A stretch of 41,801 nucleotides of DNA from assembly GCA_040754315.1 (NCBI GenBank), contig JBFMCS010000019.1:1-41801 (forward strand), read 5' to 3'. The number at the start of each line of letters is the position of its first letter. Position 1 is the stretch's first letter. Made by a program: the position numbers and the translations under genes. Origin of the DNA: Bacillota bacterium. Its GTDB lineage: Bacteria; Bacillota; Sulfobacillia; DUSP01; JBFMCS01. This document shows, piece after piece, positions 3,933 through 33,708 of the stretch. The notes beneath the pieces are model-generated. The model had not been told where the DNA came from. It did no database searches and saw nothing but the letters and a program-made list of their open reading frames with translations.

Positions 3933-4002
3933 ATAAGGGGTCGTGGAGCGCAGCGGAGAATACAGCCATTCTGGTGATAAGAGAGAAGAAGGAGGCACCG
4001 GA

Positions 4003-4743
4003 ATGGCACGGAGGGATTTCGCTGTGCGCGTTCTCATTGAGATCTACCTTCACTGGCAAGCGGGGAGTTCAATTCGGAGAATAGCATCGAGTTTGGGGAC
4101 AGACAGAAATACGGTCAGGAAATACGTTCGGAGAGCGGAAGAAGCCGGAATCACCCGAGACACACCCGTATCTGAGGCAGATTGGGTTCGGTTCATACGG
4201 GAGGCTTTTCCGTTTACTCATGACCCTTTCGCACGGTGCGTGAGCTTTGAGGGTCTCGAGCCGTACAAGGAGCATATCCGGGAAGCTTTAAAGGAGAACA
4301 AAGCCAGTACTGTATGGCAAAGGCTCAAGGACGAAGCAGGTATTGGCGTAAGTGAGAGCACCTTCAGGCGATACACAAAGGCAGCGATGCCGGAGGTGCT
4401 ATTGGTTTCACGTCCCACCGTATGGCGGCCCGAAGTTGCCCCTGGTGAAGAAGCCCAGATAGATTTCGGTTACCTTGGTCTTTGGGAGGATCCACCTGGA
4501 GTCAGGAAGAAAGCATGGGGCTTCATCATGGTGCTCTCCTTCAGCCGCCACATGTTTGTTCGAGTCGTCACGCGGATGGATAACCGGAATTGGCTCATGT
4601 GTCACGTGATAGGCTTTGAGTTTTTTGGAGGACGTCCCCAAAGGCTTGTCCTGGAATATGTTCCGCGGAACATATTCGACCACCATTTTCCCAGGAGGTT
4701 TTTTGCTGTCAAAAGTCATTCAAAAGTCTACAGGAATGCTTGA
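4003..4743 (+). pseudogene. istA: IS21-family transposase IstA, C-terminally truncated
   Basis: The ATG at 4003 follows GAAGGAGGCACCGG, a good ribosome binding site; an upstream GTG at 3943 opens the same frame but is less likely. The N-terminal helix-turn-helix (SIRRIASSLGTDRNTVRKYV) and the start of the integrase core (GEEAQIDFGYLG, with the first catalytic Asp) are clear. Homology stops at about FEFFGG, near 4640-4650. The remaining residues to the stop at 4743 come from foreign sequence. Roughly half of a normal IstA (about 400-500 residues) is left, missing the later catalytic acidic residues. The ATPase partner istB is absent. Confidence 0.8.
4654..4677. repeat. Perfect 24-bp palindrome at IS junction
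   Basis: The 24 bases beginning GAATATGTTC and ending GAACATATTC, with centre CCGCGG, read the same on both strands without a mismatch. The palindrome lies exactly where istA homology ends. It has no U-tract after it, so it is not a normal terminator. It could be a head-to-head junction of a short duplicated segment, an operator, or a transposon target. Confidence 0.6.
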
Positions 4744-5584: not shown

Positions 5585-5681
5585 ACTCCGCCAGGAGGCC
5601 CGCAGGTAATACCACAAGATTTAGGAATTTCCCCCTGCCAAGAAGGAGAAACCTCCATGGTGTAGAATAATCAGCAAGTAA

Positions 5682-5712
5682 GGAACAACGCCGTTCCCCT
5701 GGCAACGAAGCC
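5682..5712 (+). promoter_or_regulatory. Tandem hexaloop hairpins, putative ANTAR antiterminator target
   Basis: Hairpin 1 (5682-5697) has five pairs, GGAAC with GTTCC, closing the six-base loop AACGCC. Hairpin 2 (5701-5712) has GGC with GCC closing the six-base loop AACGAA; a C-G pair outside one mismatch can extend it. Both loops have A at position 1 and G at position 4. Two neighbouring hairpins with AnnGnn hexaloops are the known binding site of ANTAR-domain antiterminators such as EutV and NasR. The 3' arm of hairpin 2 overlaps the 5' arm of the terminator that follows, so the two structures exclude each other. An ANTAR response regulator is encoded at 13527-14180. The link is inference; the fold is read directly. 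Confidence 0.75.
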
Positions 5713-5755
5713 TGTTGAGCCGACGACTGTCGGCCAGCAGGCTGTATTCTTTCTC
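5709..5755 (+). terminator. Intrinsic terminator/attenuator in the adh-aor leader
   Basis: The arms AGCCTG (5709-5714) and CAGGCT (5738-5743) pair, continued by a short TTG/CAG helix with one wobble, a bulged A at 5718, and GCCGAC with GTCGGC around the tetraloop GACT. A T-rich tail, GTATTCTTTCTC, follows to 5755. The first four bases of the 5' arm are also used by the upstream hexaloop hairpin, the classic arrangement for regulated antitermination. The dehydrogenase gene starts 27 bases later. Confidence 0.7.
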
Positions 5756-5781
5756 AGTACCCAAAAAAGGAGGAGTTCGTA

Positions 5782-7023
5782 GTGTCCACCTCAAGTTTCG
5801 GAAGGCCGGGGCAGCAGTTCGCGTGGGATAACCCGCCAAGGGTACTATTCGGACCCGGCTCACTGGAGCACGTCGGAGACGAGGTTAAGGCGCTGGGGCA
5901 AGAGTCCAAGAATGTGCTGGTCATCACTGACAAGTTCCTCGAGAGTTCGGGGGTGATATCCAGGGTCACTGACCAGATGTCAAAGAGCGGCCTGGACGCT
6001 ACGGTGGTTGCCACCGAAGCCACAGAGCCGGACATGGAGAGCATGAGGCATGTTGCCTCAAGGGCCCGGGAGAAAGACTTCAGTGTGGTCCTGGGTGTAG
6101 GCGGAGGCAGCTCCATGGATAGGGCCAAGGTTGCCGCCCTGATGGCCACCAATCCGGGTGACGTCAAGGAGTACTCCGCTCCCGCCGACACTGACGGGAT
6201 GGTTCGTTCTCATGCCCTCCCTAAGGTGCTCGTTCCCACCACCTCGGGAACAGGAAGTGAGGTCTCCAACACCGCAGTACTGAGCGAAGCCGGCATCAAG
6301 ACCTGGATTACCAGTTCCCAGCAGCTGGCCGCAGTAGCCATAGTGGACCCGGTGCTGACCCTTACCGTCCCGCCCTACGTCACGGCTGGCACAGGGATGG
6401 ACGCCCTGAGCCACTGCGCTGAGGCAGTGATGTCCATGCAGTCAAACCCCCTGTCGGATTCCATGGGCCTGGAGGGGATCCGCCTTGTAGGGAAGAGCCT
6501 GCGCAAGGCCTACTATTGGGGTGAGGACCTGGAGGCCAGGACCGACCTGTCGTTCGCAGCGATGCTGGGCGGGTGGGTGATAGGTTTCCCCTGGGTCGGA
6601 GGGCCAGCGCTTCTAGGGCACTGCGTATCTGAAGGCATATCGGCAAGGTACTCCATCCCCCACGGGGTTGCTTGTGGGGTGGCCCTTCCCTACGTAATGC
6701 AGTTCTGCATGGCGAACCCGTACTGCGAAGGAAAACTTGCCTCGATTGCCACTGTCCTGGGGAAGGACATAAGCGGCCTGTCCCAGCGAGACGCTGCCAA
6801 GGCCGGTATCAAGGCTGTATTCGAGTTGATGGAGGACGTGAGCCTGCCGCTGTGCCTGAAGGATGCGGGCGTACCGGAAAGCGACCTGGACGAAGTCGCG
6901 GACTACCTGGTCAATGAGAGACAGTTCATGTATGACCTGGCAAGCTACAACCCCGTGAGGCTTACCACCGAAAACACCCGGAAGTTCATGCGTGACATGT
7001 ACAACGGCAACACGACGGTCTGA
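5782..7023 (+). CDS. Iron-dependent alcohol dehydrogenase
   Basis: A 413-residue group III (iron-containing) alcohol dehydrogenase. It has the NAD(P)-binding loop GGGSSMDRAK (108-116) and the family signature PTTSGTGSEVS (152-162). The metal ligands match the FucO pattern: D207, H211, H280 and H294, in MDALSHCAEA and GHCVSEGISARYSIPHG. It should interconvert an alcohol and an aldehyde in the cytoplasm. The GTG start at 5782 follows AAAGGAGGAG with good spacing. It is the first gene of an apparent operon with a ferredoxin, a tungsten AOR and a MoaD-like gene, so its likely role is to make or consume the aldehyde handled by AOR. Expression is probably controlled by the hairpin leader at 5682-5755. 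Substrate is not predictable. Confidence 0.93.
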   Translation: MSTSSFGRPGQQFAWDNPPRVLFGPGSLEHVGDEVKALGQESKNVLVITDKFLESSGVISRVTDQMSKSGLDATVVATEATEPDMESMRHVASRAREKDFSVVLGVGGGSSMDRAKVAALMATNPGDVKEYSAPADTDGMVRSHALPKVLVPTTSGTGSEVSNTAVLSEAGIKTWITSSQQLAAVAIVDPVLTLTVPPYVTAGTGMDALSHCAEAVMSMQSNPLSDSMGLEGIRLVGKSLRKAYYWGEDLEARTDLSFAAMLGGWVIGFPWVGGPALLGHCVSEGISARYSIPHGVACGVALPYVMQFCMANPYCEGKLASIATVLGKDISGLSQRDAAKAGIKAVFELMEDVSLPLCLKDAGVPESDLDEVADYLVNERQFMYDLASYNPVRLTTENTRKFMRDMYNGNTTV

Positions 7024-7041: not shown

Positions 7042-7443
7042 ATGAACCGGTTGGATTGTGATCCTAGTCTGTGTACAGACTGCCGCACCTGTCAACTGGC
7101 ATGTGCCTTCGAGAAGGTGGGTACCTTCAACCCCCGGAAAGGCGTGTTGAGGATCGCTGTGGAGAAGGACGGCGTGTGGGCAAGGCCATGGGTCTGCCTC
7201 CAGTGCAGGAACCCGGTATGTGCCAAGGTGTGTCCCTCCGAGGCCATTGCCCGGGATGAGGAGACCGGCGTAGTGAAGATAAGCGCGGACGACTGCACCG
7301 GGTGCGGCGAGTGTGCCAAAGCGTGTCCTCAAGGCGTGATCGTCATGGACGGTGACATTGCGCGGAAGTGTGACCTTTGCGGGGGAAGTCCATCTTGCGT
7401 GGAGTGGTGTCCTACCGGGGCGCTCTCTTACGGTGGGAGGTGA
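7042..7443 (+). CDS. Polyferredoxin (4Fe-4S, HycB/CooF-like) electron carrier for AOR
   Basis: A 133-residue protein with cysteine groups arranged for several [4Fe-4S] clusters: CDPSLCTDCRTCQLAC near the start, CLQCRNPVCAKVC in the middle, CTGCGECAKACP after that, and CDLCGG...CVEWCP at the end. This is the HycB/CooF-like layout of about four clusters. It would move electrons between the adjacent AOR and cytoplasmic partners. GGAGGGATTAAAG precedes the ATG. It starts 18 bases after the dehydrogenase stop and ends 6 bases before AOR starts, so the three are surely co-transcribed. Such small ferredoxin subunits are known partners of AOR in bacterial Aor complexes; an NADH-binding subunit is not present here. 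Confidence 0.9.
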   Translation: MNRLDCDPSLCTDCRTCQLACAFEKVGTFNPRKGVLRIAVEKDGVWARPWVCLQCRNPVCAKVCPSEAIARDEETGVVKISADDCTGCGECAKACPQGVIVMDGDIARKCDLCGGSPSCVEWCPTGALSYGGR

Positions 7444-7449: not shown

Positions 7450-9291
7450 ATGTCCTATGCGGGGAAAATCCTGCAGATTGACCTGACTAGCAGGAGGCAC
7501 TCCTTCGTCCCACTGCCTCAATGGGCAAAGGAGAGTCTCATCGGAGGCAAGGGCCTTGGAGCGAAGATGCTCCTTGAGAGTTTCAAGGACAAGGCATTTG
7601 GGCCATATGACCCGGAAGCCCCGTTGATGTATGTCTCAGGCCCACTCACGGGTACGATGGCGCCTTCGATGAGGGGATGCGTTGTATGCAAGTCTCCTCT
7701 GACAGACATGTTCAATGACTCATACTTCGGAGGTCATTTTGCCCAAGAAATGAAGTACGCCGGGTACGACGCCATAGTCATTACCGGGCAGGCCCAGGAA
7801 CCTTCGTACATCGTCATAGACGATGAGAGCGTGGAGATACGGCCTGCCCGAGAAATGTGGGGCCTGGACACGTACGAAACCTACGCGTGGCTTCGCAAGA
7901 ACCTCGGTGACGATGGCTTCAGGATCTCGTGCATAGGCCCTGCAGGGGAGAACCTGGTGAGGTACGCCGTGGTGGATTGCGACCCCCACAGGCAGGCCGG
8001 TAGGTGCGGCGCCGGGGCGGTCATGGGTTCAAAGAAGCTGAAGGCCGTGATCATCAGGGGCACAGGTGGCCCTCGGGTAGCTGACCCCCGTGGTTTCATC
8101 GAGGCTGTGCGGGAGGCAACGAAGGAGATCGCGGATTCCACCTCAAGCCTGGCACTGGCCAATTCGAGCAGCCTCTCGCTCCTGGACTTCTCCAACACCT
8201 ACGGGTTCTTCCCAACCAGGAACTTCTCCGACGGGTGGTACGAGAAGGCTGACCCCATCAACGTGGATGGCCAGTCCAAGCTCTGGGTCCGGCACGTAGG
8301 GTGTGCCGGGTGTCCCATTCACTGCAGCAAGATGGTGTACCTGTCCAGCGGGCAGGTATGCGACAACGTGGAGTATGAGACCACTGGCCTTCTCGGCGGG
8401 AACCTCGACATAGCGGACCCGTGTGACCTGGCAGAGTTCAACGAGCTGGCCGACCGCATGGGGCTAGACACAATTAGCCTTGGTGCGGTCCTCGGCTTTG
8501 CCGCGGAGGCCTTCAAGGAAGGACTCCTGAAGAGCGATGAGTGGAGAGAAGGGGGCATTGCCTTCGGCAACTCGGGCGGTCTCATGGCTCTATCGAAGGA
8601 CATAGCCTACAGGCGTGGCACCGGCGACCTGCTCGCCGAGGGACTCGAACGGGTAACCGGTGAGTTGGGACCGAAGAGCCGGGAACTTGGGTGCTTCATC
8701 CAGGGCCTCGAGACGCCGGCCTGGGGCCCGAGGGGCTCAGCTGGGATGGGGCTTGCCTACCTCAGCGGCGACCGGGGTGGCTGCCACCAGCGGGCCTTCC
8801 CCATCGGCTATGAGACAGAGGGAACATGGCTCGACAAGCCCGTTGAGGACGGTCGCAGCACGCAGGGCAAGGCCGAGATCGTGGCATGGGAGCAGAACCT
8901 CCTGGCAGGCCTTTACTCCCTCGTTGCCTGCGAGTTTGGGAGGTCCGGGATCTCCACGGGATCCTACATCAGGATGCTCAACGCGGCCACGGGCCTCTCC
9001 TATGATGAGAAGGCCTTCTTCGAGACAGGGGAGAGGATCTGGAACCTGATCAGGTGCTTCAACCTGTCTCAGGGGTGGACCCAGGAGAGCAAGGCCAAGA
9101 TGCCACCACGCTTCCGCCAGCCCCTGCCCAACGGGATGATGAAGGGCCACGCCTTTGACGAACAGACTGAAGCCTTCCTCCTGAAGGAGTACAATTCCGT
9201 CCGGGGATGGAGTGCCAGCGGTGAGCCCCTTCCCGGAACCAAGGCAAGACTGAAAGTCAACGATCTACTGGGCAAGACGATGTTACGGTAG
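7450..9291 (+). CDS. aor: Tungsten aldehyde:ferredoxin oxidoreductase (AOR)
   Basis: A 613-residue protein, normal for the AOR family. The N-terminal bis-pterin domain is clear (IGGKGLGAKM, SGPLTGTMAPS). The [4Fe-4S] ligands are C285, C288 and C292 in CAGCPIHCSK, with C494 in LVACEFG as the fourth. Active-site residues of the Pyrococcus AOR have counterparts at E310 (EYETTG) and H446 (GGCHQRAFP). The enzyme oxidises aldehydes to carboxylic acids with ferredoxin, or reduces acids when reduced ferredoxin is abundant. The ATG lies after GGGAGGTGAACAGCC, overlapping the end of the ferredoxin gene. With the neighbouring alcohol dehydrogenase it can complete an alcohol-to-acid or acid-to-alcohol route. 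I infer tungsten rather than molybdenum from the family. Confidence 0.95.
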   Translation: MSYAGKILQIDLTSRRHSFVPLPQWAKESLIGGKGLGAKMLLESFKDKAFGPYDPEAPLMYVSGPLTGTMAPSMRGCVVCKSPLTDMFNDSYFGGHFAQEMKYAGYDAIVITGQAQEPSYIVIDDESVEIRPAREMWGLDTYETYAWLRKNLGDDGFRISCIGPAGENLVRYAVVDCDPHRQAGRCGAGAVMGSKKLKAVIIRGTGGPRVADPRGFIEAVREATKEIADSTSSLALANSSSLSLLDFSNTYGFFPTRNFSDGWYEKADPINVDGQSKLWVRHVGCAGCPIHCSKMVYLSSGQVCDNVEYETTGLLGGNLDIADPCDLAEFNELADRMGLDTISLGAVLGFAAEAFKEGLLKSDEWREGGIAFGNSGGLMALSKDIAYRRGTGDLLAEGLERVTGELGPKSRELGCFIQGLETPAWGPRGSAGMGLAYLSGDRGGCHQRAFPIGYETEGTWLDKPVEDGRSTQGKAEIVAWEQNLLAGLYSLVACEFGRSGISTGSYIRMLNAATGLSYDEKAFFETGERIWNLIRCFNLSQGWTQESKAKMPPRFRQPLPNGMMKGHAFDEQTEAFLLKEYNSVRGWSASGEPLPGTKARLKVNDLLGKTMLR

Positions 9292-9311: not shown

Positions 9312-9545
9312 ATGCCAATTGTGAGAGTCTGGACAGCCGGCGGATTGACTCCATGCAAGCACACGGGTAAGGATGAGGTGGTACTTGAACCGAAATCCAC
9401 TCTGCGAGACTTGTTCAAGGTCTTGGGCTTGTCACCCGGACCCGGAGTGGTGGTTCTAGTGGATGGAAGACGCATTGAACTCGATGACCTTCTTCCGGAC
9501 GGCTGTGAGGTTACAGTCTTCCCGCACGTTGCGGGGGGAGCCTAG
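9312..9545 (+). CDS. MoaD/ThiS-like ubiquitin-fold sulfur carrier
   Basis: A 77-residue beta-grasp protein located 20 bases after AOR with a good GGAGG site. The C-terminal region VVVLVDGRRIELDDLLPDGCEVTVFP is typical of MoaD/ThiS proteins. In the family the chain ends in Gly-Gly, which is adenylated and thiocarboxylated to carry sulfur for pterin cofactor synthesis. MoaD-like genes next to aor are common and thought to serve tungstopterin. Here the chain ends GGA, so one alanine follows the Gly-Gly. Either the alanine is removed or activation is altered. The stop codon is clear in this sequence. Confidence 0.85.
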   Translation: MPIVRVWTAGGLTPCKHTGKDEVVLEPKSTLRDLFKVLGLSPGPGVVVLVDGRRIELDDLLPDGCEVTVFPHVAGGA

Positions 9546-9880: not shown

Positions 9881-10984
9881 ATGAGCCGGAAAAACAGAGG
9901 GTTCCTCGTCATTAGCAGGTATGTGATGGTGGTGATGTTGATCACGGTCATGATGGTATTGAGCGGTTGTTCGCAGGGAGCATCCGCTCCGCCGGAGAAT
10001 TCCTCCGGCAGCAGTATTTCAGCTCCGAAGGGCGAGCCCATCAGGTGGAGACTCCAGTCCTATGCAGGTTCTGCCCTGAACGAGCACGTTGTGCTGAACG
10101 CCATCAAGGAGTTCAATGAAGCGGCAAACGGAGAGATGATCATTGAGGTGTACGCCGCTGACCAGCTGGTCCCTCAGTCGGAGATCTTCCGGGCACTGAA
10201 GGATGGGACCATCAACATGGCGGTCAGTGACGATGACTCAATGGCCTCCCCCGTGGATGTCTCCATCTTTGCCGCCTACTTCCCGCTGGCCGCGCGCACC
10301 GGGCTGGATGTGAACGTCCTGTGGAACTGGTATGGACTGAATGAGATCTGGGAAGAGGCCTACGGTGAGATAGATGGCGTGACTTGGATAAGCCAGGGTA
10401 GCTGGGACCCCTGCAACATCGCTTCCGTCAAGCCCATTAACAGGCTGGAGGATCTTAAGGGCCTCAGGTTGTACATGTTCCCCACTGGCGGCAAGTTCAT
10501 GCAGCGCTTCGGCGTTGTACCGGTGACCATCCCCTACGAAGACGTGCAAATGGCTATCCAGACCGGGCAGCTGGACGGTGTTGCCTGGTCTGGCATCACT
10601 GAGGACTACACCGTGGGATGGGCCGATGTCTGCAAGTACTATCTCACCAATCCCATCTCAGGAGGTTGGTCTGGCGGCTGGTTTGCCAACACGAAGGCCT
10701 GGGAGGCCCTGCCGGACCACCTGAAGACCATGTTGAGACTGGCAATAGACAAGTCTCACTACTACAGGCTCCACTGGTACTGGTGGGGAGAGGCTCACTA
10801 CCGCGTGAAGGGTGACAAGTTGCAGCTCACAACTATCCCGGCAGACGAATGGGCCATCGTGGAACAGGAGGCACTCAAGTTCTGGGACGAGATTGCTGCT
10901 CAGAGCCCCAGGTGCGCCGAGGTTGTGGAGATCCTGAAGGAGTACGCTGACATCTTGGAGAAGGCCGGTCCTCCCTACAAGTAA
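9881..10984 (+). CDS. dctP: TRAP transporter solute-binding lipoprotein (DctP family)
   Basis: A 367-residue extracytoplasmic solute receptor with a lipoprotein signal; the lipobox is VLSGC with the lipidated cysteine at residue 30. Core DctP features follow: RALKDGTINMAV near 104-115, then RLEDLKGLRLYMFP and MAIQTGQLDGVAWSG. It binds a substrate outside the membrane for the DctQM permease encoded next. At the place where most DctP proteins have the carboxylate-binding arginine (G-L-K-x-R) this one has Tyr198, so its ligand may not be a plain carboxylate. AAGGGGGGTTGAAGC precedes the ATG. Its position behind aor suggests import of the substrate of the alcohol/aldehyde pathway. Confidence 0.9.
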   Translation: MSRKNRGFLVISRYVMVVMLITVMMVLSGCSQGASAPPENSSGSSISAPKGEPIRWRLQSYAGSALNEHVVLNAIKEFNEAANGEMIIEVYAADQLVPQSEIFRALKDGTINMAVSDDDSMASPVDVSIFAAYFPLAARTGLDVNVLWNWYGLNEIWEEAYGEIDGVTWISQGSWDPCNIASVKPINRLEDLKGLRLYMFPTGGKFMQRFGVVPVTIPYEDVQMAIQTGQLDGVAWSGITEDYTVGWADVCKYYLTNPISGGWSGGWFANTKAWEALPDHLKTMLRLAIDKSHYYRLHWYWWGEAHYRVKGDKLQLTTIPADEWAIVEQEALKFWDEIAAQSPRCAEVVEILKEYADILEKAGPPYK

Positions 10985-11027
10985 GGACCACAGGGTTCAG
11001 GATTATGCGCTTGGTGGTGGATAAACG

Positions 11028-11546
11028 TTGTTAGAGAGACAGATGAGAGCGTACGTACGCTTCACGGACAGGCTGACCGAGGTAGTTGGCGGTTTCGCCA
11101 AGTACCTGATCTTCCTGCTCATGGGGATCTTGATTTACGAGGTATTCTCGCGAACCATCTTCAACAAGCCTCACATCTGGCAAGTCGAGATGTCCGCGTT
11201 CACCATGACGGCCTACTACATGCTTGGCGGCGCCTACACCCTTATTCGCGAAGGGCACGTGAGGATGGACCTTTTCCACTACAAGTGGTCGGCCAGGGGA
11301 AAGGCCGCTGCTGATGTGATCACCTTTCCCATAATCATGGTGTACATGGCCATCTACCTTTATGGCAGCATCACGTCCCTGCAGTATGCCATGGAGTACC
11401 GCCAGGTAACGTACTCGTCATGGGGACCGCCCCTGGCGCCCATCAAAGTCATTATGCTCATCGGGATCGCCTTGATGACCATGCAAATGCTTTCGGAGTT
11501 CTTCAAGAACCTCTTGAGGATGAGAGGGAGGGAGACCACTAGATGA
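11028..11546 (+). CDS. dctQ: TRAP transporter small permease subunit (DctQ family)
   Basis: A 172-residue membrane protein with four predicted hydrophobic segments: about 18-36, 50-68 (MSAFTMTAYYMLGGAY), 90-112 and 130-150. EVFSRTIFNKPHIWQVEM and REGHVRMD are typical of DctQ subunits. It joins with DctM to form the membrane part of the TRAP system. The frame opens with TTG at 11028 after GGTGGTGG; an ATG at 11043 is an alternative start. The stop overlaps the dctM start in ATGA, which indicates translational coupling. Confidence 0.88.
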   Translation: MLERQMRAYVRFTDRLTEVVGGFAKYLIFLLMGILIYEVFSRTIFNKPHIWQVEMSAFTMTAYYMLGGAYTLIREGHVRMDLFHYKWSARGKAAADVITFPIIMVYMAIYLYGSITSLQYAMEYRQVTYSSWGPPLAPIKVIMLIGIALMTMQMLSEFFKNLLRMRGRETTR

Positions 11547-12862
11547 ACTACGAGATGATAGCCATTCTGATGTTCCTTTCCATGCTCACCCTCCTTCTTA
11601 CGGGCCGCCACATATTTGCGGTTATCGGCTTTGTGGCGGCCCTCTTCGCCCTTTTCCTGTGGGGCGAAGGGTCCTTAGAACTTGCCTACCACGGAAGCTT
11701 CAAGCTGCTGAACTGGTACGCGCTGGTAAGCCTCCCGATGTTCATCTACATGGGCTACATGTTCTCAAAGTCAGGAATAGCGGATGACCTCTACCAGATG
11801 ATGTATGTCTGGTTTGGCCCGGTCAAGGGCGGCTTGGCCATAGGCACTGTGATCCTGATGTCGATCATCGCAGCCATGAACGGCCTGAGCGTGGCCGGTA
11901 TGGCCATTGGAAGCACCCTGGCTTTGCCGGAAATGCTCAAGCGCGACTATGACAAGATTATGGTTACAGGGGTTATCCAGGCGGGCAGTTCACTGGGCAT
12001 CATGATACCACCCAGCGTGGTCCTGGTTCTTTACGCGATGATAGCGCGGCAGCCGGTTGGGCGGTTGTGGATGGCGGGCATCTTGCCTGGCCTGCTCCTG
12101 GCGGGCCTGTTCATTCTCTACATCTACATAAGGTGCCTGTTCCAGCCGCACCTGGGGCCTGCGGCGACGCTGGAGGAGCGGCAAATCCCCCTGGCGAAGA
12201 AGCTGGCACTGCTCAGTGCCGGAGTGATCCCCCTGATCATCATCTTCACCATGACGGGACTGTTTCTAATGGGGATCACCAGCATGGTAGAGTGCTCAGC
12301 GGTGGGTGCTCTCGCAGTGACGGTGGTTGCCCTTGCCAAGCGAAGGCTCGACTGGAAGGGAATGATGGAGGTACTTCACGAAACCCTGAATGTGAGCTGC
12401 ATGTTCATGTGGGTCATCTCCGCGGCCCTGGCCTTCAGTTCTGTGTTCGATGGTCTTGGTGCAGTGAAGGCTCTGGAGAACGTGTTTCTCAACTATAACT
12501 TGAGCCCCTGGGCGGTAATGGGGGTGATGCAGATATCCTACCTTCTAATGGGCACATTCCTGGACGACACCGCCATGCTGATCATCGTTGCCCCGCTCTA
12601 CGTTCCGCTTGTAATCAAGCTGGGCTTTGACCCAATCTGGTACGGGGTTCTGTACACTATTACCTGCCAGGTTGCCTACTTGACACCGCCCTTCGGGTAC
12701 AACCTGTTTCTCATGAGGGCCATGGCCCCCAAGGAGATAACGCTGGCGGACATCTACCGTTCGGTGGTTCCCTTTGTGCTGATCATGTGCCTTGGGTTGT
12801 TGATCGTCATGGCGTTTCCGCAGATCGCATTGTGGATCCCTGACATGTACTTCTCGAGATAG
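11543..12862 (+). CDS. dctM: TRAP transporter large permease subunit (DctM family)
   Basis: A 439-residue, highly hydrophobic protein of normal DctM length with about 12 membrane segments. Family motifs include SLPMFIYMGYMFSKSGIA, AAMNGLSVAGMAIGSTLALPEM and the IMIPPSVVLVLYAMIA stretch, and later LGTFLDDTAMLIIVAPLY-like sequence. It is the sodium-coupled translocation subunit that accepts solute from DctP. It overlaps dctQ by four bases and ends the block; a weak TAGGC/GCCTA hairpin lies over the stop. Confidence 0.93.
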   Translation: MNYEMIAILMFLSMLTLLLTGRHIFAVIGFVAALFALFLWGEGSLELAYHGSFKLLNWYALVSLPMFIYMGYMFSKSGIADDLYQMMYVWFGPVKGGLAIGTVILMSIIAAMNGLSVAGMAIGSTLALPEMLKRDYDKIMVTGVIQAGSSLGIMIPPSVVLVLYAMIARQPVGRLWMAGILPGLLLAGLFILYIYIRCLFQPHLGPAATLEERQIPLAKKLALLSAGVIPLIIIFTMTGLFLMGITSMVECSAVGALAVTVVALAKRRLDWKGMMEVLHETLNVSCMFMWVISAALAFSSVFDGLGAVKALENVFLNYNLSPWAVMGVMQISYLLMGTFLDDTAMLIIVAPLYVPLVIKLGFDPIWYGVLYTITCQVAYLTPPFGYNLFLMRAMAPKEITLADIYRSVVPFVLIMCLGLLIVMAFPQIALWIPDMYFSR

Positions 12863-13526: not shown

Positions 13527-14180
13527 GTGAATGCTCCAAGGAATTGCTTGTCCGCGGTAATAGCGGATGACGACCCTCTGATTAGGCTAGACCTGCGAGA
13601 GGTATTGAATGATGTTGGAGTATACGTGTGTGGGGAAGCAGCTGATGGTGTGACGGCCATGGTGATGGTAGAGACAACAAGACCTGATGTGGCCATTCTT
13701 GATGTGAAACTACCCCGCCTTGATGGCCTCGAAACCGCATTTGAGATCTTGCAGAGGAGACTCAGTGCGGTGGTGCTCCTCACCGCATATTCTGACCAGG
13801 TTATGGTGGAACAGGCATTGCTCTGCGGGGTGCAGGCCTACTTGGTCAAGCCCATCAAGCCTGATGGTCTTCTTCCTGCGATAAAGGTGGCGGTATCCAA
13901 CTTCCGGAAGATGTGTGCCCTCGAGGAAAAGGTGAACAGCATCGCCACCAAACTCGAGGCAAGGAAGCTGGTGGAGAAGGCGAAAGGGCTTGTGATGAAG
14001 CACACGGGCTGTTCCGAGGAAGAAGCCATGAAGGTGCTGCAGCGATCGAGCATGAACGCCAGGAAGAGCATGACAGAAATCGCAGAATCGGTGATTGCCT
14101 CCTATAGCCTGCTAAGTCGTGAGGTTTCTTCTCGGGATCCGGTAAGGGAGCCGGCAGGCGATCTGTTCCTTGGCCGCTAG
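13527..14180 (+). CDS. Response regulator with receiver and ANTAR RNA-binding domain
   Basis: The frame is open from 13413, but receiver homology starts at SAVIADDDPLIRLDL, so I choose GTG at 13527 after GGGGGTG (217 residues). The receiver has the acidic cluster DDD at 14-16, the phospho-acceptor D59 in VAILDVKLP, a Thr in LLTAYS and the conserved Lys in YLVKPI. A coiled linker leads to a C-terminal ANTAR domain (KLVEKAKGLVMKHTGCSEEEAMKVLQ). ANTAR proteins of the AmiR/NasR/EutV/PdtaR class bind paired hexaloop RNA hairpins and prevent termination. The convergent kinase gene is its likely partner, and the leader at 5682 its likely target. Confidence 0.92.
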   Translation: MNAPRNCLSAVIADDDPLIRLDLREVLNDVGVYVCGEAADGVTAMVMVETTRPDVAILDVKLPRLDGLETAFEILQRRLSAVVLLTAYSDQVMVEQALLCGVQAYLVKPIKPDGLLPAIKVAVSNFRKMCALEEKVNSIATKLEARKLVEKAKGLVMKHTGCSEEEAMKVLQRSSMNARKSMTEIAESVIASYSLLSREVSSRDPVREPAGDLFLGR

Positions 14181-14273: not shown

Positions 14274-15701
14274 CTAGGCAAAACTGCTCATGGGAAACTC
14301 GAGCTCCGCGACTGCCCCTCCATCATTCAGAAGGCGGATACTGCCGCCGAATACCTCTCTTACAAGCACGTTCACTATCTGAAGCCCCGTACCCTGTACT
14401 TCGCCGGTCAACACCCTTCCTCCAAATCCTGAACCGTTATCCGAAATGCGGATGCGATAGTGGGAGTCTGACTTCTCCAACTTGATTAGCACCCTTAACA
14501 TGCTGGTGTCTGCTGCATGCTTGAAACAATTCTGCACGATCTCATGCAGGATCAAGGCGACAGGAGTTACCTTCTCCGGGGATATCTTCATCTCAACCCC
14601 TGAGACAGATATGTCAGCCCTGCCGCCAAACTGGTACTGGTCCTGGATGTTGCGAATGATCCGGTTAACGACCTCCTCTATGTTGGTTAGCTGGGTTGTG
14701 GTTGCCCCCATAGATATCTCATGGAAGGTGGCGATGGTATTGATGAGGCTTATGGCCTCGAGGTATGCCCTCCGCCCTTCCTCTGATGAACAATTGCGTT
14801 GCCTCATGCGCAAGAGGGCACCCAGCGTGTGGAGGTCGTTCTTGACCTTGTGGTGCACCTGGCGGATGGTAAGCGTCTTTGCCAGGAGCTCCTTTTCCTT
14901 CCTCTTGATGTCAGTAACATCCCTCATCACCAGGAATGCACCTACCAAGTGTTCCCTGTCAAAGAGAGGTACCACCTGGACCAGGAGTGTCTTGTTCTGC
15001 ATCTGGACCTCTCTCTCCAGCTGCACAGCCCTGCCAAGACCGTCCTGCTCCGCAAAACCCCTACCGAGAATGATCTCGATGTTCCGGCCTTCAGGGACGG
15101 GCACATCATACAGTTCTGAGAAGAGGCGGCTTGCCGATGCATTCACATAGGTTATGGTACCGGAAGCGTCCACGGCCACTAGTCCGTCCAAGAGGATGTC
15201 AGGCAGTCCACCGTTCTGAAGGGCCACCTGGAGAAGGCTCTCAGTGAGTATGTGAGTTCGGTTTTCCAAGAGTTCCACCCGGGCTCTCTGCTGGATGTGC
15301 TCTGTGACGTTCTGCTCCATGATGAGACATCCAACGGTGACACCGGAGGCGTTCTTGATGGGGATGGCGCTCTGGCTGACACACACCCCTTCCTGGCTGA
15401 CCCCCCTGGTGCTGTGGGTGGGGATCCCATACTCCAGTGTTCGGAGAACGCCAGGCTCCTTATCACGAAAGGCAAGCTGTCCCAAGACTGAAGACCGGTA
15501 CTGGGAGTCTCCCGTTGTTGGCTTGCCGTGGGCCACTACCACTGCTGAGGACGAATCGCGGGTGAGGCAGTCGATGAATATGTCTGACCGGGTCAAATCC
15601 GCTATCAACTGGACGTGCAGTTCCACCGACTCGAGGACTGCTATGTCGTCGGAAGACAGTTTGCTGTGAGACCGGCATATCTGTCTTAATCCACTACCCA
15701 T
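14274..15701 (-). CDS. Soluble PdtaS/EutW-type sensor histidine kinase
   Basis: A 475-residue kinase with no membrane segment, hence cytoplasmic. Residues 1-140 resemble the H_kinase_N sensor domain of PdtaS (LIADLTRSD, SAIPIKNASGVTVGCLI). A PAS domain follows at about 165-265 (GLVAVDASGTITYVNASA). The dimerisation domain is of the HisKA_2/HWE type with H283-H284 in VHHKVKNDLHTL, then the N-box HEIVQNCFKH (386-395) and G-boxes DNGSGFGG and GTGLQIV. This class pairs with ANTAR response regulators. The gene converges on the regulator gene with 93 bases between stops. The N-terminal and PAS domains should sense an intracellular ligand; which one is not visible. Confidence 0.9.
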   Translation of the reverse strand: MGSGLRQICRSHSKLSSDDIAVLESVELHVQLIADLTRSDIFIDCLTRDSSSAVVVAHGKPTTGDSQYRSSVLGQLAFRDKEPGVLRTLEYGIPTHSTRGVSQEGVCVSQSAIPIKNASGVTVGCLIMEQNVTEHIQQRARVELLENRTHILTESLLQVALQNGGLPDILLDGLVAVDASGTITYVNASASRLFSELYDVPVPEGRNIEIILGRGFAEQDGLGRAVQLEREVQMQNKTLLVQVVPLFDREHLVGAFLVMRDVTDIKRKEKELLAKTLTIRQVHHKVKNDLHTLGALLRMRQRNCSSEEGRRAYLEAISLINTIATFHEISMGATTTQLTNIEEVVNRIIRNIQDQYQFGGRADISVSGVEMKISPEKVTPVALILHEIVQNCFKHAADTSMLRVLIKLEKSDSHYRIRISDNGSGFGGRVLTGEVQGTGLQIVNVLVREVFGGSIRLLNDGGAVAELEFPMSSFA

Positions 15702-16474: not shown

Positions 16475-18142
16475 ATGAGTCATCTCTACGATGCTCTTTA
16501 TCCAGAGGCTACAGGGATTACCGTCAAAGAGGCGCTAAACCTTGGCGCGTTGACGAAGGCTCGAGTTGTGGCAGGAAGAGGCGGCCTTTCTAACATCGTC
16601 CGGCACGTGAGTGTCATCGAAGTCCCTGATGCCGTACGCTGGTTTAGCGGGCACGAGCTCATGATAACCGCAGCATACTGTTACCGCACCGCGAAAGATC
16701 TCGTCCAGCTGGTGGAGGATCTTGTGTGTGCGGACGCAGCAGCCCTTGCGGTATGCTATTCCGAGAGATATCTTCACGGGATCCCGGAAACCGTGATTGC
16801 CCGGGCGAACGAGCTGGAATTTCCCATTTTGGAAATCCCCCTAGATGTAAGGTATATCGAGATCATCACTCCTGTAGTCACTGCTATTGTGAACAGGCGA
16901 GCGCAGTACCTGGACTTGGCCTTCCAGGCACACATCGAACTTGAGACCCAGATTATTGAGGGCATGGGCCTTGAGCCCATGATACAGAAACTGGCCGATT
17001 TGCTGAAGGTGCCCGTTCTCCTTCTAGATCCAAAACTAAAGGTCCGCTTCCTTGCATGCCCGCCTGGGGAAGTGATGCCCATCGAGGTGATAGGCATTGA
17101 CTTGCGGGCAGCCCTGGACGGAGCGCGACTGGATGGGGAAGAGAGCACCTGCCTGGTGCAAGAAATAGACGGCATAAACTACTTCACTGTCCCTCTGGGA
17201 GCCAAAGCGCTTATGCTCGGCTACCTCGTGGCATTGGAGACCAAGCGCGATGATACCAAACGCCTACTGCTTGCACAGTGTTCACTGCCAGTCGCATTGG
17301 CGCTGCTTTTCGAAAGAACCTTCAAAGAAGCGGAGTGGCGAATGCAGAGGGGCTTCTTTGATGATCTGCTGGACGGATTGATACCCAAGGAAGTGCTTCA
17401 GAGAAGAGCACACGCATACGGGGTCAATCTCGCGGGCTGTCACTGTGTGTTGGTGGCTGATACCAAGGTGCGGGCTGGCAGGGGCCGGGACCCAGAGCAA
17501 GAAGATCCAGTGTCTATCGAGAAGGAGAAGCTGAAGAAGATGGCAATCCGGATGGTAGACACCGAAGCCGATGGGGGCTTCGTGATGTCCAGGGGGGACC
17601 TGCTGATAGTGCTCCCCCAGTTCCCCAAAGCACATAGGAGGGCAGTGTTGCAGGAAGCCAAGCGCATAGCCGAGATGTTGGCCCAGGAGATCTCTAGACG
17701 TCTCTCACACGTCACCGCTTCCATAGGGGTTGGATGCTACTGCGCCGAGATCGGAGAACTGCCTAAAGGTTTCTCCACCGCCCGTAACGCAATCGAGGTG
17801 GGGTCACGGCTCCGAGGGTCCTCCGGGGTCCACTGCTGGGATGATCTGGGCGTCTACCAGCTGCTCTTGGCGGTGAAAGGAGCGGGAGAGCCCGCCGCTT
17901 TCGTTTCGGAAAGACTGCGACCCTTGCTCGACCACAGCAACCCGCGCAACGCGGAGCTCCTGCAAACCTTGGAGGTCTTCCTGGCGTGTCGAGGGAACCA
18001 TGAGCAGACGGCGTCGCGCCTGCACCTGCACCGCAACACTGTCAAGTACCGCCTTCAGCAGGTCCGCTCGCGGCTGGGGTATGACCCCATGGAACGCTCG
18101 CTCGAAGTCGAACTGGCCTTGGCGTTGCGCAAGCTGCAGTAG
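16475..18142 (+). CDS. pucR: PucR-family transcriptional regulator
   Basis: A 555-residue regulator with the three parts of the family. The N-terminal PucR domain (about 10-140) includes TVKEALNLGAL, ARVVAGRGGLSNIVRHVSVIEVPD and the GHELMITAAY motif. A central CdaR/GGDEF-like region spans about 300-440. The C-terminal HTH_30 domain is clear: FLACRGNHEQTASRLHLHRN followed by TVKYRLQQVRSRLGYDP. PucR of Bacillus activates purine degradation genes, and relatives often sit beside amide, hydantoin or purine catabolic genes. It is upstream of and in the same direction as the M29, racemase and transporter genes, which are its likely targets. No TM segments. The start at 16475 follows a weak GGGCAGGG site. 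Confidence 0.93.
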   Translation: MSHLYDALYPEATGITVKEALNLGALTKARVVAGRGGLSNIVRHVSVIEVPDAVRWFSGHELMITAAYCYRTAKDLVQLVEDLVCADAAALAVCYSERYLHGIPETVIARANELEFPILEIPLDVRYIEIITPVVTAIVNRRAQYLDLAFQAHIELETQIIEGMGLEPMIQKLADLLKVPVLLLDPKLKVRFLACPPGEVMPIEVIGIDLRAALDGARLDGEESTCLVQEIDGINYFTVPLGAKALMLGYLVALETKRDDTKRLLLAQCSLPVALALLFERTFKEAEWRMQRGFFDDLLDGLIPKEVLQRRAHAYGVNLAGCHCVLVADTKVRAGRGRDPEQEDPVSIEKEKLKKMAIRMVDTEADGGFVMSRGDLLIVLPQFPKAHRRAVLQEAKRIAEMLAQEISRRLSHVTASIGVGCYCAEIGELPKGFSTARNAIEVGSRLRGSSGVHCWDDLGVYQLLLAVKGAGEPAAFVSERLRPLLDHSNPRNAELLQTLEVFLACRGNHEQTASRLHLHRNTVKYRLQQVRSRLGYDPMERSLEVELALALRKLQ

Positions 18143-18517
18143 GCTGCTTTTCCACCCGCCACCCCCCCAGGAGCTTCTCATCCTTCTCGCCATACCGGGC
18201 ATGTTGTACTGCGGGGCGCCCCCACCTTGAAGGAGTGCCTCATCCAACCCCGGGCCTTCTTCACATTTCGCTCGACCTAGACCTTTCCCGGCTGGGTCAG
18301 TGGGTTCGGACAAGAGATGCCCCAACCGTTTGTGCATGCCTGACAACAACCCGGACCTTGCCTCTTCCTATCACGGAATATGGCATCTTATCCCAAAATT
18401 GACTCTTAGCAATATTGTCCAAGCGTGGGGCTGAACTTCGGTCGTCTTCGACGAAGGGCTCCTGGCCTGCCAGAGGGAAGTGGGTAGGCAGATTATGGCA
18501 CGGAGGTGTAGTGAATA
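18143..18517. other. 375-base regulatory gap before the M29/racemase operon
   Basis: No gene is seen. The gap separates pucR from its probable target operon and should contain the operon promoter and PucR binding sites. I found no promoter good enough to mark. CACGGAGGTGTAGTGAATA just before 18518 provides the ribosome binding site for the next gene. Confidence 0.4.
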
Positions 18518-19561
18518 ATGCCGTCCATTCAAGACCTTGAGCTGGCGACGACAGGGCACAAGATTATCAACGAGTTGTGTAAGGTGAAACCGGGAGAGAG
18601 CGTCCTCATCACCATCGACTCAGCCTCGGAATGGAAGCCCGCTGAGGAGATCGCCAAGGCTGCTGAGGTGGCAGGGGCCAATGTCATGGTTGCCTGGCAC
18701 TCCACTCCCGCAGGCTACGGCAAGGTTGCCGACCCTAGGCTGGCTGACGGGTTGAAGGCTGCCATACCTAACACTGACGTATGGATTGAGCTCAACAACC
18801 AGTGGCTGCTGTATTCCTCGCCTTGGCTGGAGGCGATGAACGGCACCCGGGTCAGGTACCTTTTCCTGGGTGGCCTGGATACCGACCAGTTCGTCCGCTG
18901 TATAGGGAAGATCGATATACCCGCGCAACACGCTTTCCAGTCGGAGCTCGTCTCCATGACTCGCAGCGCCAAGCACATGCGTATCACGAACCCTTCGGGT
19001 ACTGACGTGAGCTTCGAGAATGATCCAGAGAGGCCGGTCACCAACGAACTCTTTGCAGATGTCCCCGGAGCGCACTTCCTGATAGGCCAGATCGGCTGGG
19101 CTCCAGTGGAGGAAAGCATAAACGGGGCAATTGTGTTTGACGGCTCTTTCTCGGGCGGAGGGGAAGCTGATCTGGGCATCCTGAAAGACCCCGTCAAGTT
19201 GACCGTCAAGGAAGGAATCATTACCGGGATCGAGGGTGGGGCGGAAGCAGCGAAGGTCAAGGACTGGTTGGAGAGGCTGGGCGATGAGAAGATGTATCAC
19301 ATGGCCCACGTGTGCTATGGGTATAACCCCGGGGCACGCCTTTCAGGGTTGTGCACTGAAGACGAACGCGTATGGGGCTCCACGGAATGGGGCATCGGCT
19401 TTCAGGGGCCCTTCTTCAAAGGAAAGGTAGGCACGGCGGCGACTCATGCCGATGGGATCTGCTTGAATTCATCCGTATGGATTGACGGCGAGATGATAGT
19501 GGAGGAAGGCAGGGTCGTGCATCCTAAACTGGCCCGCTTGGCCGCCGGTCTCGGCAAGTAG
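18518..19561 (+). CDS. NicX-like / M29-fold metalloenzyme
   Basis: A 347-residue protein of the aminopeptidase T (M29)/2,5-dihydroxypyridine dioxygenase NicX superfamily. The C-terminal metal site appears as H264 in HMAHVCYGYNPGA and H310-x-D312 in THADGICLNSSVWIDG. This resembles the His, His, Asp iron site of NicX. The glutamate found in aminopeptidases in the NLPAGE motif is not present; DVPGAH stands there instead. In an anaerobe an oxygenase is unlikely, so hydrolysis of a cyclic or linear amide is a reasonable guess, but the reaction is unknown. It is the first gene after pucR and is followed by a second, more peptidase-like relative and a racemase. Annotated relatives are often called leucyl aminopeptidase. 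Confidence 0.8.
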   Translation: MPSIQDLELATTGHKIINELCKVKPGESVLITIDSASEWKPAEEIAKAAEVAGANVMVAWHSTPAGYGKVADPRLADGLKAAIPNTDVWIELNNQWLLYSSPWLEAMNGTRVRYLFLGGLDTDQFVRCIGKIDIPAQHAFQSELVSMTRSAKHMRITNPSGTDVSFENDPERPVTNELFADVPGAHFLIGQIGWAPVEESINGAIVFDGSFSGGGEADLGILKDPVKLTVKEGIITGIEGGAEAAKVKDWLERLGDEKMYHMAHVCYGYNPGARLSGLCTEDERVWGSTEWGIGFQGPFFKGKVGTAATHADGICLNSSVWIDGEMIVEEGRVVHPKLARLAAGLGK

Positions 19562-19682
19562 ATAGGGGTCCAGAAGGTGCCGCCTCTTCAAGACGGGAAG
19601 TAGACGCTCTAACCTGGACAATGCGTGCTTAATCCGAGCGGCGGCAGTCAATCACCAGGCTTGTCCAGGGAGGGAAGCGAAG

Positions 19683-20651
19683 ATGCAGCAGGACCTTACG
19701 GCCAGACTACAGGCAGGAGCGCTTGTAGCCGTCAGCCAGTGCCTAAGCGTCCAGCAAGGTGAAACCGTTCTCATAGTGACGGACCAGCACTGCCTCGATG
19801 TGGCATGGGCTCTGTGGCGGGCCGCCTGGAAGGTCCGGGGAGAACCCATGATGATGGTCATGCGCCCGCGGGAGGCGCACGGAGAAGAGCCCCCTCTACC
19901 GGTGGCGAAGGCCATGAAGGAATCGGCCGTATGTCTCCTCCCGACCTCCAGGTCTCTCACCCACACGGTTGCGAGAAGAGAAGCTAGCGAAGCCGGAACC
20001 CGCCTTGCCAGCATGCCGGGCATTACCTCTGATATCGCCGCACGCTCACTGGATGCTGACTACGGGCAGATCTCGTGTGTTACCGAAAAAGTGGCTTCGC
20101 TGCTGGATGCGGGAGCCTCGGTGCAGCTGGAGACGCCCGCAGGCACGCATCTTACGATGGACATTTCCGGCCGCAGGGCAGTCCGCGATACGGGCCTATA
20201 CACATCCCCAGGCGCTTTCGGCAATCTACCCGCAGGCGAGGCTTACATTGCCCCGGTTGAGGGTTCGGCCACCGGGCACATGGTAGTTGACTCGACTATG
20301 GCTGGCATAGGGTTCCTCGACCATCCCCTTGTGATAGAGGTGGTGGAGGGGAAGGCCGTGTCAGTGACAGGGCGCGGCTACGCGGAGAGGCTGGAGGCCA
20401 TGCTTGACGCAGCAGGTCCTGCCGCCCGAAACCTGGCCGAGCTGGGGATTGGCACGAACCCGGCGGCAACCATTGTGGGGAACGTTCTCGAGGATGAGAA
20501 GGTGCTGGGCACAGTGCACGTGGCACTGGGGTCCAACGCTAGCTTCGGCGGGCGGGTTAGGGTAGCCTGCCACCTTGACGGGGTGATGCTGCGCCCCAGT
20601 CTTTGGGTTGACGGAGTCTTGGTGATGGAGTCGGGGATGCTGTTGGCGTAG
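19683..20651 (+). CDS. M29-family aminopeptidase-like metalloenzyme
   Basis: A 322-residue relative of the preceding protein but with a full set of M29 metal ligands: E186 in NLPAGEAYIAP, E253 in AELGIGTNP, H279 in GTVHVALG, and H297-x-D299 in ACHLDGVM. M29 enzymes use two metal ions to release N-terminal residues or to cleave related amides. The protein is shorter than AmpS/AmpT (about 410 residues). The ATG at 19683 has GGGAGGGAAGCGAAG before it. It stands between the NicX-like gene and the racemase gene and is probably co-transcribed. The operon context of a racemase and importers argues for catabolism of an amide-bond compound taken up from outside. Confidence 0.8.
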   Translation: MQQDLTARLQAGALVAVSQCLSVQQGETVLIVTDQHCLDVAWALWRAAWKVRGEPMMMVMRPREAHGEEPPLPVAKAMKESAVCLLPTSRSLTHTVARREASEAGTRLASMPGITSDIAARSLDADYGQISCVTEKVASLLDAGASVQLETPAGTHLTMDISGRRAVRDTGLYTSPGAFGNLPAGEAYIAPVEGSATGHMVVDSTMAGIGFLDHPLVIEVVEGKAVSVTGRGYAERLEAMLDAAGPAARNLAELGIGTNPAATIVGNVLEDEKVLGTVHVALGSNASFGGRVRVACHLDGVMLRPSLWVDGVLVMESGMLLA

Positions 20652-20689
20652 AGAGGCATAGAACGCCAATGCGCTGGAGGCGAGGTTGA

Positions 20690-21391
20690 ATGAGAATTAA
20701 GGTCATAATACCCAATTCCTCCCTGGAGTTTCTAGGACTGGCCATTGAGGAACGCAGGAAGGCTGTCCCTGAGGGTATTCGAGTCGACACCGTCTGTTTG
20801 GAGCACGGCCCCGTGTCGCTGGAATCAGCCTCAGACGAGGCTCTGGTCGCATCGCATTTGCTAGGGGAGGTGCGTAAGGCCGAAAACGAAGGGTACAATG
20901 CAGTTACCATAGACTGTGCTGCGGATCCGATTGCCAGGGCGGCAAGAGAGGCTGTCAGCATACCGGTAGTGAGCGCTGGACTAGCCAGCTACCAGTATGC
21001 CATGGGCCTGTGTCGCAGGTTCTCGGTAATAACTGTGCTCAACTGTACAGCCAGTCTCATCAGGGACAATATCAGCAGGTATGAGCTATCCCAGAAGGTG
21101 GCTTCGGTAAGGGCCGCGGACGTGCCGGTTCTAGCCTTGAAGGAGCACAACAAGGCGATCACCGCAATTATTTCAGAGTCCAGGCGAGCTATCGAACTGG
21201 ATGGAGCTGAAGCCATAGTGCTGGGGTGCACGGGCATGTCTTCCTTTACCGACCTCCTGCAATCTGAGCTGGGGGTTCCGGTGATAGATCCCGCAGCTGC
21301 TGCCTTGAACATGGCCATTTCTCTTTGCCGGATGAATCTGACGCAGAGCAGGCAGTGCTTCTTAATCTCGCCCGCTAAAGAGGTGTTATAG
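20690..21391 (+). CDS. Hydantoin/Asp-Glu racemase family protein
   Basis: A 233-residue protein of the Asp/Glu/hydantoin racemase family. The N-terminus MRIKVIIPNSSLE matches the usual IxVINPNTS start. The two catalytic cysteines are visible in VTIDCAADP and VLGCTGMSS. LEHGPVSLESASDEALVA and RRFSVITVLNCTASL fit hydantoin racemase rather than glutamate racemase or maleate isomerase. The reaction would be inversion at a carbon next to a carbonyl, for example of a 5-substituted hydantoin. GGAGGCGAGGTTGA precedes the ATG, and the gene is 38 bases after the M29 gene. No hydantoinase is in the window, so the two M29-fold proteins may take that role; that is inference. Confidence 0.88.
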   Translation: MRIKVIIPNSSLEFLGLAIEERRKAVPEGIRVDTVCLEHGPVSLESASDEALVASHLLGEVRKAENEGYNAVTIDCAADPIARAAREAVSIPVVSAGLASYQYAMGLCRRFSVITVLNCTASLIRDNISRYELSQKVASVRAADVPVLALKEHNKAITAIISESRRAIELDGAEAIVLGCTGMSSFTDLLQSELGVPVIDPAAAALNMAISLCRMNLTQSRQCFLISPAKEVL

Positions 21392-21557
21392 GCACCACGA
21401 TTGGCTGTGGGAAAGACTCTCGGCAAGAACAGCGACAAGAGGACCTTGCTGGTACTGGATGGCAGCAGGTGAAGGTCTGAGGAGGTGAATCTCGTAGAGG
21501 AAACAGCATCGCCTAGGGCAGTATGGCATCAGGAAATGAGGGAAAGGAGGAGTGTGC

Positions 21558-22877
21558 ATGAACAAGAAGACGCTTAAAGCGCTCGCGGCGTTGTCACTGG
21601 CGATACTACTCGCCGGAGGTGTCACGTCATGCACTGCACCGACCGCCCCTGCACCTACTGACACCACCCTACCGGCTATCAAGATTCTTGGCACAATGCC
21701 ATTGTCAGGGGAAGCTGCCAACCTCGGACCAGCGTATGACAGGGCGATTCGCATGGCGGTGGACGAACTGAACGAGACTGGAATTCCCGGGTTTGCCGGC
21801 ATCGATTACAAGGTGATTGACACCGAAACCAAACCTTCAACGTTTCAGAAGAAGCTCGAACGGGAAGTCCAGACTTGGGGGCCGGACCTAATCATCGGTG
21901 CTGCGCTGGAAACGGAGCTCCGAGTGCCATGCCAGCTGTCGCCACAGTACAAGCTTCCCTGCGTGGTTGGTGGTCACCTAAGCATGTCCAAGTACATCCC
22001 TCCAGGGGAAGTCCCCCTATCCAAATGGGTCTGCTACTATGGATACTCCGACTACTACTGTGGGTGGCTTGCTGGCCAGTTCTTCCACGAGATGGGCGCC
22101 AAGAAGGTAGCCTTTGTAGGTGGCGATTACGATTGGAGCTACAGCAACAGCATGGGCCTGAAGGCATACTGGGAGAATAACGGGAAACCTTTCGAAATCT
22201 CACCCGTCATTTATACCCCACTTGACAAGACCGATTTTGCCACTGAGGTAGATATCATCAAACAAGCACAGCCAGATGCCCTCTACTGCGCCTACATGGG
22301 GGCCGGTTGGTTCAGCTTTCCCAAACAGCTTCGAGATGCCGGAGCCGTCCCGGAGTACTTCCTGTACGATCCCACGTATTCAAACATGGGAGGTGCCAAG
22401 ATCACAGGAGCGTACGGAGCGGAAAACATCTATACGCTCGCCGATCACGACCCGGACAGTTCGGCCTGGGCTGAATTCGTGAAAAAGTGGAAGGAAAGGT
22501 ACGGGCAGGACGCTTATCCCGAAGCCTATACCAACAACCACTATCAGGCCATTTACTGGTTCATTGAAGCCGTTAAGAAAGCCGGGCCTAAGGCGCTAGA
22601 AGACCACGAGTTGCTCATTGATACCATGCTTGAGACGTCCTTCCAAAATGTCTGTATCAGCCCCATGGGACCATTGTGCGATTATGGGAGCAACGCGGGG
22701 GCAACGGGGGCGATCATACAGTTCCAACCCGGTTCCGGGTTGGACCCAAGCTTCCCTTTGCACGAGGTGATGATTAAGACCTACGAGACTCCCAAGAAGG
22801 ATTCAATGAGCGTTCTCCAGGAGATGAAAGGTCTCACGAAGCTGGAGCAGGGTCAGGCCTACCCTGCGGGGGATTGA
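21558..22877 (+). CDS. LIV-type ABC transporter substrate-binding lipoprotein
   Basis: A 439-residue periplasmic-binding-protein type I (Peripla_BP_6) protein of the branched-chain amino acid/amide uptake class. ATG at 21558 is preferred to GTG at 21552 because of its spacing from GGAGG. The signal is LAILLAGGVTSC, with a lipidated cysteine. IKILGTMPLSGEAANLGPAYDRA is the usual start of the mature domain. It captures a solute for the four ABC components encoded next. LIV-family transporters carry amino acids, amides, urea and aromatic acids; the catabolic neighbours suggest an amide or cyclic ureide rather than leucine. It has a 166-base leader after the racemase gene. Confidence 0.9.
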   Translation: MNKKTLKALAALSLAILLAGGVTSCTAPTAPAPTDTTLPAIKILGTMPLSGEAANLGPAYDRAIRMAVDELNETGIPGFAGIDYKVIDTETKPSTFQKKLEREVQTWGPDLIIGAALETELRVPCQLSPQYKLPCVVGGHLSMSKYIPPGEVPLSKWVCYYGYSDYYCGWLAGQFFHEMGAKKVAFVGGDYDWSYSNSMGLKAYWENNGKPFEISPVIYTPLDKTDFATEVDIIKQAQPDALYCAYMGAGWFSFPKQLRDAGAVPEYFLYDPTYSNMGGAKITGAYGAENIYTLADHDPDSSAWAEFVKKWKERYGQDAYPEAYTNNHYQAIYWFIEAVKKAGPKALEDHELLIDTMLETSFQNVCISPMGPLCDYGSNAGATGAIIQFQPGSGLDPSFPLHEVMIKTYETPKKDSMSVLQEMKGLTKLEQGQAYPAGD

Positions 22878-23675: not shown

Positions 23676-23677
23676 AG

Positions 23678-33705: not shown

Positions 33706-33708
33706 ATC

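Follow-up and report, generated by a model that had tools for sequence, protein, structure and literature searches.

We identified, in a 41,801-nt stretch of DNA from a Bacillota bacterium (contig JBFMCS010000019.1; the whole stretch is hereafter called the window), a leader RNA at 5682–5743 that is very probably an ANTAR-responsive transcription antiterminator. Through it, a EutVW-type regulator–kinase pair encoded outside any eut operon would control an operon for an iron-containing alcohol dehydrogenase (ADH), a ferredoxin-type electron carrier, an aldehyde:ferredoxin oxidoreductase (AOR) and a ThiS-like protein. The preliminary description of this DNA had already read the site as an ANTAR-type antitermination switch in front of the ADH/AOR operon, and that reading is now supported by matches to two covariance models, by conserved loops, by co-occurrence with EutV-like regulators and by the single ANTAR regulator of the genome.

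Architecture of the leader RNA

The leader runs in the order AAGGAAC, AACGCC, GTTCC, CCT, GGC, AACGAA, GCC, TGTTGAGCCGACGACTGTCGGCCAGCAGGCT and GTATTCTTTCTC, followed by AGGAGGAG and the GTG start codon of the ADH gene at 5782 (Table 1). The P1 and P2 hairpins have Watson–Crick stems of 5 and 3 bp (at least 3 bp being the dual-hairpin definition), and both carry a hexaloop with A at the first and G at the fourth position (A1 and G4). They are joined by a 3-nt linker, CCT (5698–5700), as compared with 0–8 nt in clear cases among relatives. On direct reading, the hairpin sequences, the three-base gap and every coordinate described earlier proved exact, and A1 and G4 are present in both loops as described. 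The 3-bp stem of P2 is the minimum used by Ramesh 2012, and 3-bp P2 stems in the same register, with the P2 arm within the start of the terminator, occur in the eut leaders of other families (for example L219, L209 and L220).

The intrinsic terminator lies in the sense orientation and overlaps P2: nucleotides 5709–5712 are common to both, and the 3' arm of P2 falls inside the 5' arm of the terminator, making the two structures mutually exclusive. This overlap had been pointed out before, and our folding calculation reproduces it. The terminator tail is T-rich, with an imperfect U tract rather than a clean T run. The minimum free energy (MFE) of 5670–5770 is –36.7 kcal/mol, as compared with –23.9 ± 3.5 kcal/mol in shuffles (z –3.6). 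The MFE state combines P1 with the terminator and the alternative state combines P1 with P2; within 5682–5755 their energies are –33.6 and –9.7 kcal/mol, respectively, indicating that P2 needs help to win. No promoter was recognized.

The RNA could also be an ANTAR target that acts translationally or by sequestration through single-hexaloop binding. ANTAR targets that lack terminators exist (PMC3369931) and EutV binds single hexaloops (PMC8934654), but the mutual exclusion of P2 and a strong terminator, together with a Shine–Dalgarno sequence outside both hairpins, makes this mode of action highly improbable as compared with antitermination.

Table 1. Features of the leader RNA, the operon downstream and the putative regulatory proteins (window coordinates)
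Feature	Position	Strand	Description or basis
P1 hairpin	5682–5697	+	5-bp stem GGAAC (5682–5686)/GTTCC (5693–5697), hexaloop AACGCC (5687–5692); sequence, in MFE fold, R2 match
P2 (antiterminator) hairpin	5701–5712	+	3-bp stem GGC (5701–5703)/GCC (5710–5712), hexaloop AACGAA (5704–5709); sequence, R2 match
Intrinsic terminator hairpin	5709–5743	+	35 nt, about –27 kcal/mol, followed by the tail GTATTCTTTCTC; folding
Shine–Dalgarno sequence of ADH gene	5768–5775	+	AGGAGGAG; sequence
Fe-containing ADH, first operon gene	5782–7023	+	413 aa; PF00465/PF25137
4Fe-4S ferredoxin-type electron carrier	7042–7443	+	PF13187/PF13247
AOR, tungsten family	7450–9291	+	PF02730, PF01314
ThiS/MoaD-like protein	9312–9545	+	77 aa; PF02597, E 1.5e-9
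TRAP transporter dctPQM	9881–12862	+	PF03480, PF04290, PF06808
ANTAR response regulator (EutV-like)	13527–14180	+	GTG start; Response_reg and ANTAR domains; putative trans-acting factor
EutW-like sensor histidine kinase	14274–15701	–	Pfam GAF_PdtaS, PAS, HisKA_2, HATPase_c; groups with eut-operon kinases

The motif is not a chance pattern

A loose form of the motif, in which dual AnnGnn hexaloops are combined with any terminator-like fold, occurs 2.1 times per shuffled window; it is thus expected about twice per window by chance, and the pattern alone is weak evidence. The loose scan was therefore dropped as not discriminating and replaced by a strict one, in which both stems contain at most one G-U pair and are accompanied by a dense overlapping terminator hairpin and a T-rich tail. 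The strict motif matched once in 100 shuffled windows and in none of 5000 shuffles of the leader. No match was found in 389 kb of the genome that holds the window, nor in 198 kb from two genomes of the same order that lack ANTAR genes. By comparison, 636 kb flanking the ANTAR genes of relatives contained 17 matches, 10 of them in 295 kb around ANTAR genes of the class and 7 in 340 kb around EutV-like genes of the phylum. The strict scans and the R2 score given below establish that the motif at 5682–5743 is not due to chance.

These results bear on the simplest alternative, that the terminator merely ends a transcript arriving from the region of transposase remnants before 5584 and that the two hexaloop hairpins are coincidental. 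An IS21-like transposase gene does lie upstream, and the frequency of the loose motif would allow such a coincidence. This explanation is nevertheless improbable: the strict motif arises by chance in about one of 100 windows and is missing from 587 kb of control DNA, the site has the closing pairs and loop bases specific to the family (R2, 23.7 bits), the terminator ends 38 nt before the ADH start codon, which is the position of an attenuator, and the genome carries an ANTAR regulator about 8 kb away.

Covariance models and related ANTAR RNAs

ANTAR genes are present in 23 of 154 genomes of the class, and the motif adjoins such genes, for example before a glutamine synthetase gene, a nifH-like gene and eutA (gene names assigned by eye). 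We built two covariance models with the window excluded: R1 from fourteen ANTAR-adjacent copies of the motif, and R2 from 26 sequences, all of them ANTAR target RNAs of relatives and mostly located beside ANTAR genes. R1 was validated by its recovery of unseen copies in the eut leaders of other families. In the R2 alignment, 98% of cells are paired and 33 two-sided changes are seen versus 8 in shuffles, a count that is partly circular, because pairing was itself a criterion for choosing the seeds.

The preliminary description had proposed, among others, four checks: a covariance-model search, a comparison of the loops in homologous leaders, co-occurrence with ANTAR regulators, and a search for the same hairpins before other aor operons. 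The first three came out in favor of the switch. R1 ranks the 5682–5743 site first in the window (19.6 bits), and R2 matches it at 5683–5713 with 23.7 bits (E 5e-4 for the window), the second-best match in the window scoring 13.1 bits; the site is also the top R2 match over 668 kb of mixed DNA. P1 fits positions 1–14 of R2, with the consensus AC-AACGnn-GT. Homologous ANTAR leaders keep both A1/G4 loops and their closing pairs (AC-loop-GT and GGC-loop-GCC). Furthermore, R2 matches coincide with EutV-like regulators across 398 genomes of the phylum (52/73 versus 51/325; Fisher p 5e-20). An Rfam search at a relaxed threshold returned only chance matches and no fitting family.

The fourth check yielded no further case. 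About 70 other R1/R2 sites were sampled, and no ADH/AOR genes were recognized downstream of them; the genes found there encode glutamine synthetase, glutamate synthase, an ammonium transporter, asparagine synthase, NirB-like, NifH or eut proteins, or are unassigned (names outside the tblastn set were read by eye from the sequence). In two genomes (G023 and G073) that have ANTAR, ADH and AOR genes a few kilobases apart, no motif precedes those ADH/AOR genes. ADH homologues of the class, up to 40% identical, yielded no orthologous leader, and no close relative sharing the operon was found, leaving the window leader without an orthologue for conservation comparison.

Two eut leaders differ from the consensus. 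They belong to the two nearest relatives of the window regulator within the class (G037, L064:10382–10450; G011, L065:9438–9500, minus strand), and their P2 loops have 7 nt (AACGGAA and GATGGAT), their P1 loops start with G, and the apical loop of the terminator is a hexaloop with G4 (GATGAT and AAAGAT). They may be a variant ANTAR target.

Other candidate sites in the genome

Other R1 matches examined in the same genome score 14.8–19.0 bits and lie mostly within open reading frames. None has an overlapping terminator with a T tract; one has a coding-region fold that lacks the T tract. The prefilter of the whole-genome model search dropped the known site of the window itself, so further sites may also have been missed. 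The EutV-like regulator might act mainly on other targets in the genome, with the 5682–5743 site being one, perhaps decayed, member of a larger regulon, as related organisms do have several ANTAR RNAs. We consider this rather unlikely, given these mostly intragenic R1 matches, the lack of any strict motif in 389 kb of the genome, and a genome devoid of EutB.

The ANTAR regulator and its probable partner kinase

The regulator is the sole ANTAR protein found in the 2.92-Mb genome (a draft of 65 contigs), which leaves a single candidate for the trans-acting partner; a search of the contigs with the regulator otherwise returned only two distant receiver domains. It is at best 44–47% identical to EutV-like proteins, and is clearly similar to the solved structures 1s8n (a putative antiterminator) and 6wsh. 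We take the latter to be EutV, because its sequence fits the residues named in PMC8934654. The regulator combines REC and ANTAR domains with the phospho-acceptor Asp54 and most of the RNA-contact residues of EutV named in that paper: Arg142, Lys143, Lys147, Lys149, Glu160, Met172, Asn173 and Arg175 are kept. It differs from EutV at positions 164, 168 and 177, which also vary in relatives; residue 164, a Tyr that stacks on G4 in EutV, is Met in the regulator, and Phe, His and Met occur in relatives. Its nearest relatives in the class, those of G037 and G011, are encoded within eut operons. The tree of ANTAR proteins was unresolved, and thus the kinase tree alone was used for grouping.

The kinase gene is convergent with the regulator gene. 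The kinase shares 35–38% identity with most eut kinases sampled versus 24–26% with other ANTAR-paired kinases, and scores 213–324 bits against nine eut-operon kinases versus at most 137 bits against others; two further kinases from loci with eut genes score just 106–111 bits. In the tree, it joins the EutW kinases with support of 89/89, on a long branch. The window yielded no match to eut genes and the genome none to EutB, and the pair is not encoded with ethanolamine utilization genes.

The target operon

The ThiS/MoaD-like gene is likely the last gene of the AOR unit. The four genes from ADH to the ThiS-like gene are closely spaced. The regulated unit would surely include ADH and probably extends through the ThiS-like gene. 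It perhaps also takes in the TRAP genes, which begin 335 nt after the ThiS-like gene and have no ANTAR RNA of their own by R2 search. The genome (G000) has eight Fe-ADH matches (contigs C3, C4, C16, C20, C33, C51 and C52), some adjoining AOR or ferredoxin genes; no strict motif was found around the other Fe-ADH genes in the stretches read, and the ANTAR leader was seen at the window copy only.

A proposed mechanism

By default, the polymerase would make P1 and then the terminator, and transcription would stop before the ADH–ferredoxin–AOR–ThiS operon. Upon sensing its ligand, the EutW-like kinase may phosphorylate the EutV-like regulator, a dimer of which would bind both AnnGnn hexaloops as they emerge. 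The bound dimer is predicted to hold P2, which takes the 5' arm of the terminator, allowing the polymerase to read through; control would then be in the direction of switching on.

Comparison with known ANTAR systems

The Enterococcus faecalis EutVW/eut leaders share with the window two AnnGnn hexaloop hairpins, a P2 overlapping an intrinsic terminator, and a histidine kinase paired with an ANTAR response regulator. They differ in that the window has no matched eut genes, the genome has no EutB, and the target is an ADH–ferredoxin–AOR–ThiS operon; in addition, the regulator and kinase genes form one operon there, whereas they are convergent here. In NasR/nasF and AmiR/amiE, too, an ANTAR protein antiterminates transcription at a terminator in the leader. 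NasR is itself the nitrate sensor and AmiR is held by AmiC, whereas the input of the window system would be a histidine kinase. The ANTAR RNAs of relatives before glnA, gltB, amt, asnB, nir and nif genes have the same RNA architecture and loop consensus, but control nitrogen assimilation, which is not obviously the case for the window site.

The literature links ANTAR antitermination mainly to nitrogen metabolism and ethanolamine (PMC3369931). The switch mechanism is thus already known, and it is the target, away from nitrogen or ethanolamine genes, that is unusual. The preliminary description had called ANTAR control of a tungsten AOR not a standard example. This holds for the roughly 70 related sites, but a partial precedent exists in the eut cluster of Thermacetogenium phaeum (PMC6436200), where an AOR gene lies in a cluster putatively under ANTAR control and the aldehyde is oxidized by AOR. 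That AOR belongs to an ethanolamine/microcompartment cluster, and the window has no such genes nearby. Among the papers searched, none combined ANTAR with the plain phrase 'aldehyde ferredoxin oxidoreductase', although the spelling with a colon would escape such a search.

We lean toward the view that, in this lineage devoid of ethanolamine ammonia-lyase, a EutVW-type two-component antitermination system has lost its link to ethanolamine use and, now responding to a different ligand, has become a switch dedicated to an operon for tungsten-type alcohol/aldehyde oxidation. ANTAR control would thereby reach beyond nitrogen metabolism. If so, this stand-alone ADH–AOR case, with a EutVW-like pair in a genome lacking EutB, would indicate that the module is movable to carbon and redox metabolism. 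It would also supply tungsten-type aldehyde oxidoreductase operons with a regulator that can be tested, and provide a means of finding which ligand an orphan EutW-like kinase senses.

Additional observations

An IS21-like transposase gene or fragment lies at 3943–4743, upstream of the leader region. At 16475–26281, a PucR regulator precedes a pair of paralogous proteins, one of which matches peptidase M29, together with an Asp/Glu racemase-family protein and an ABC transporter of the branched-chain amino acid type; the gene content resembles that of a cluster for the catabolism of a nitrogenous compound. The minus strand at 28354–38204 carries a nickel-dependent hydrogenase operon comprising small and large subunits, an iron-sulfur protein, a maturation protease and hyp maturation genes. 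Elsewhere in the class, one genome (G140, L124) has three ANTAR RNAs (7697–7735, 10481–10522 and 12072–12108) near nifB-, homocitrate synthase- and nifH-like genes (names by eye), beside an ANTAR gene, an arrangement suggesting that a nif regulon is under ANTAR control in this class.
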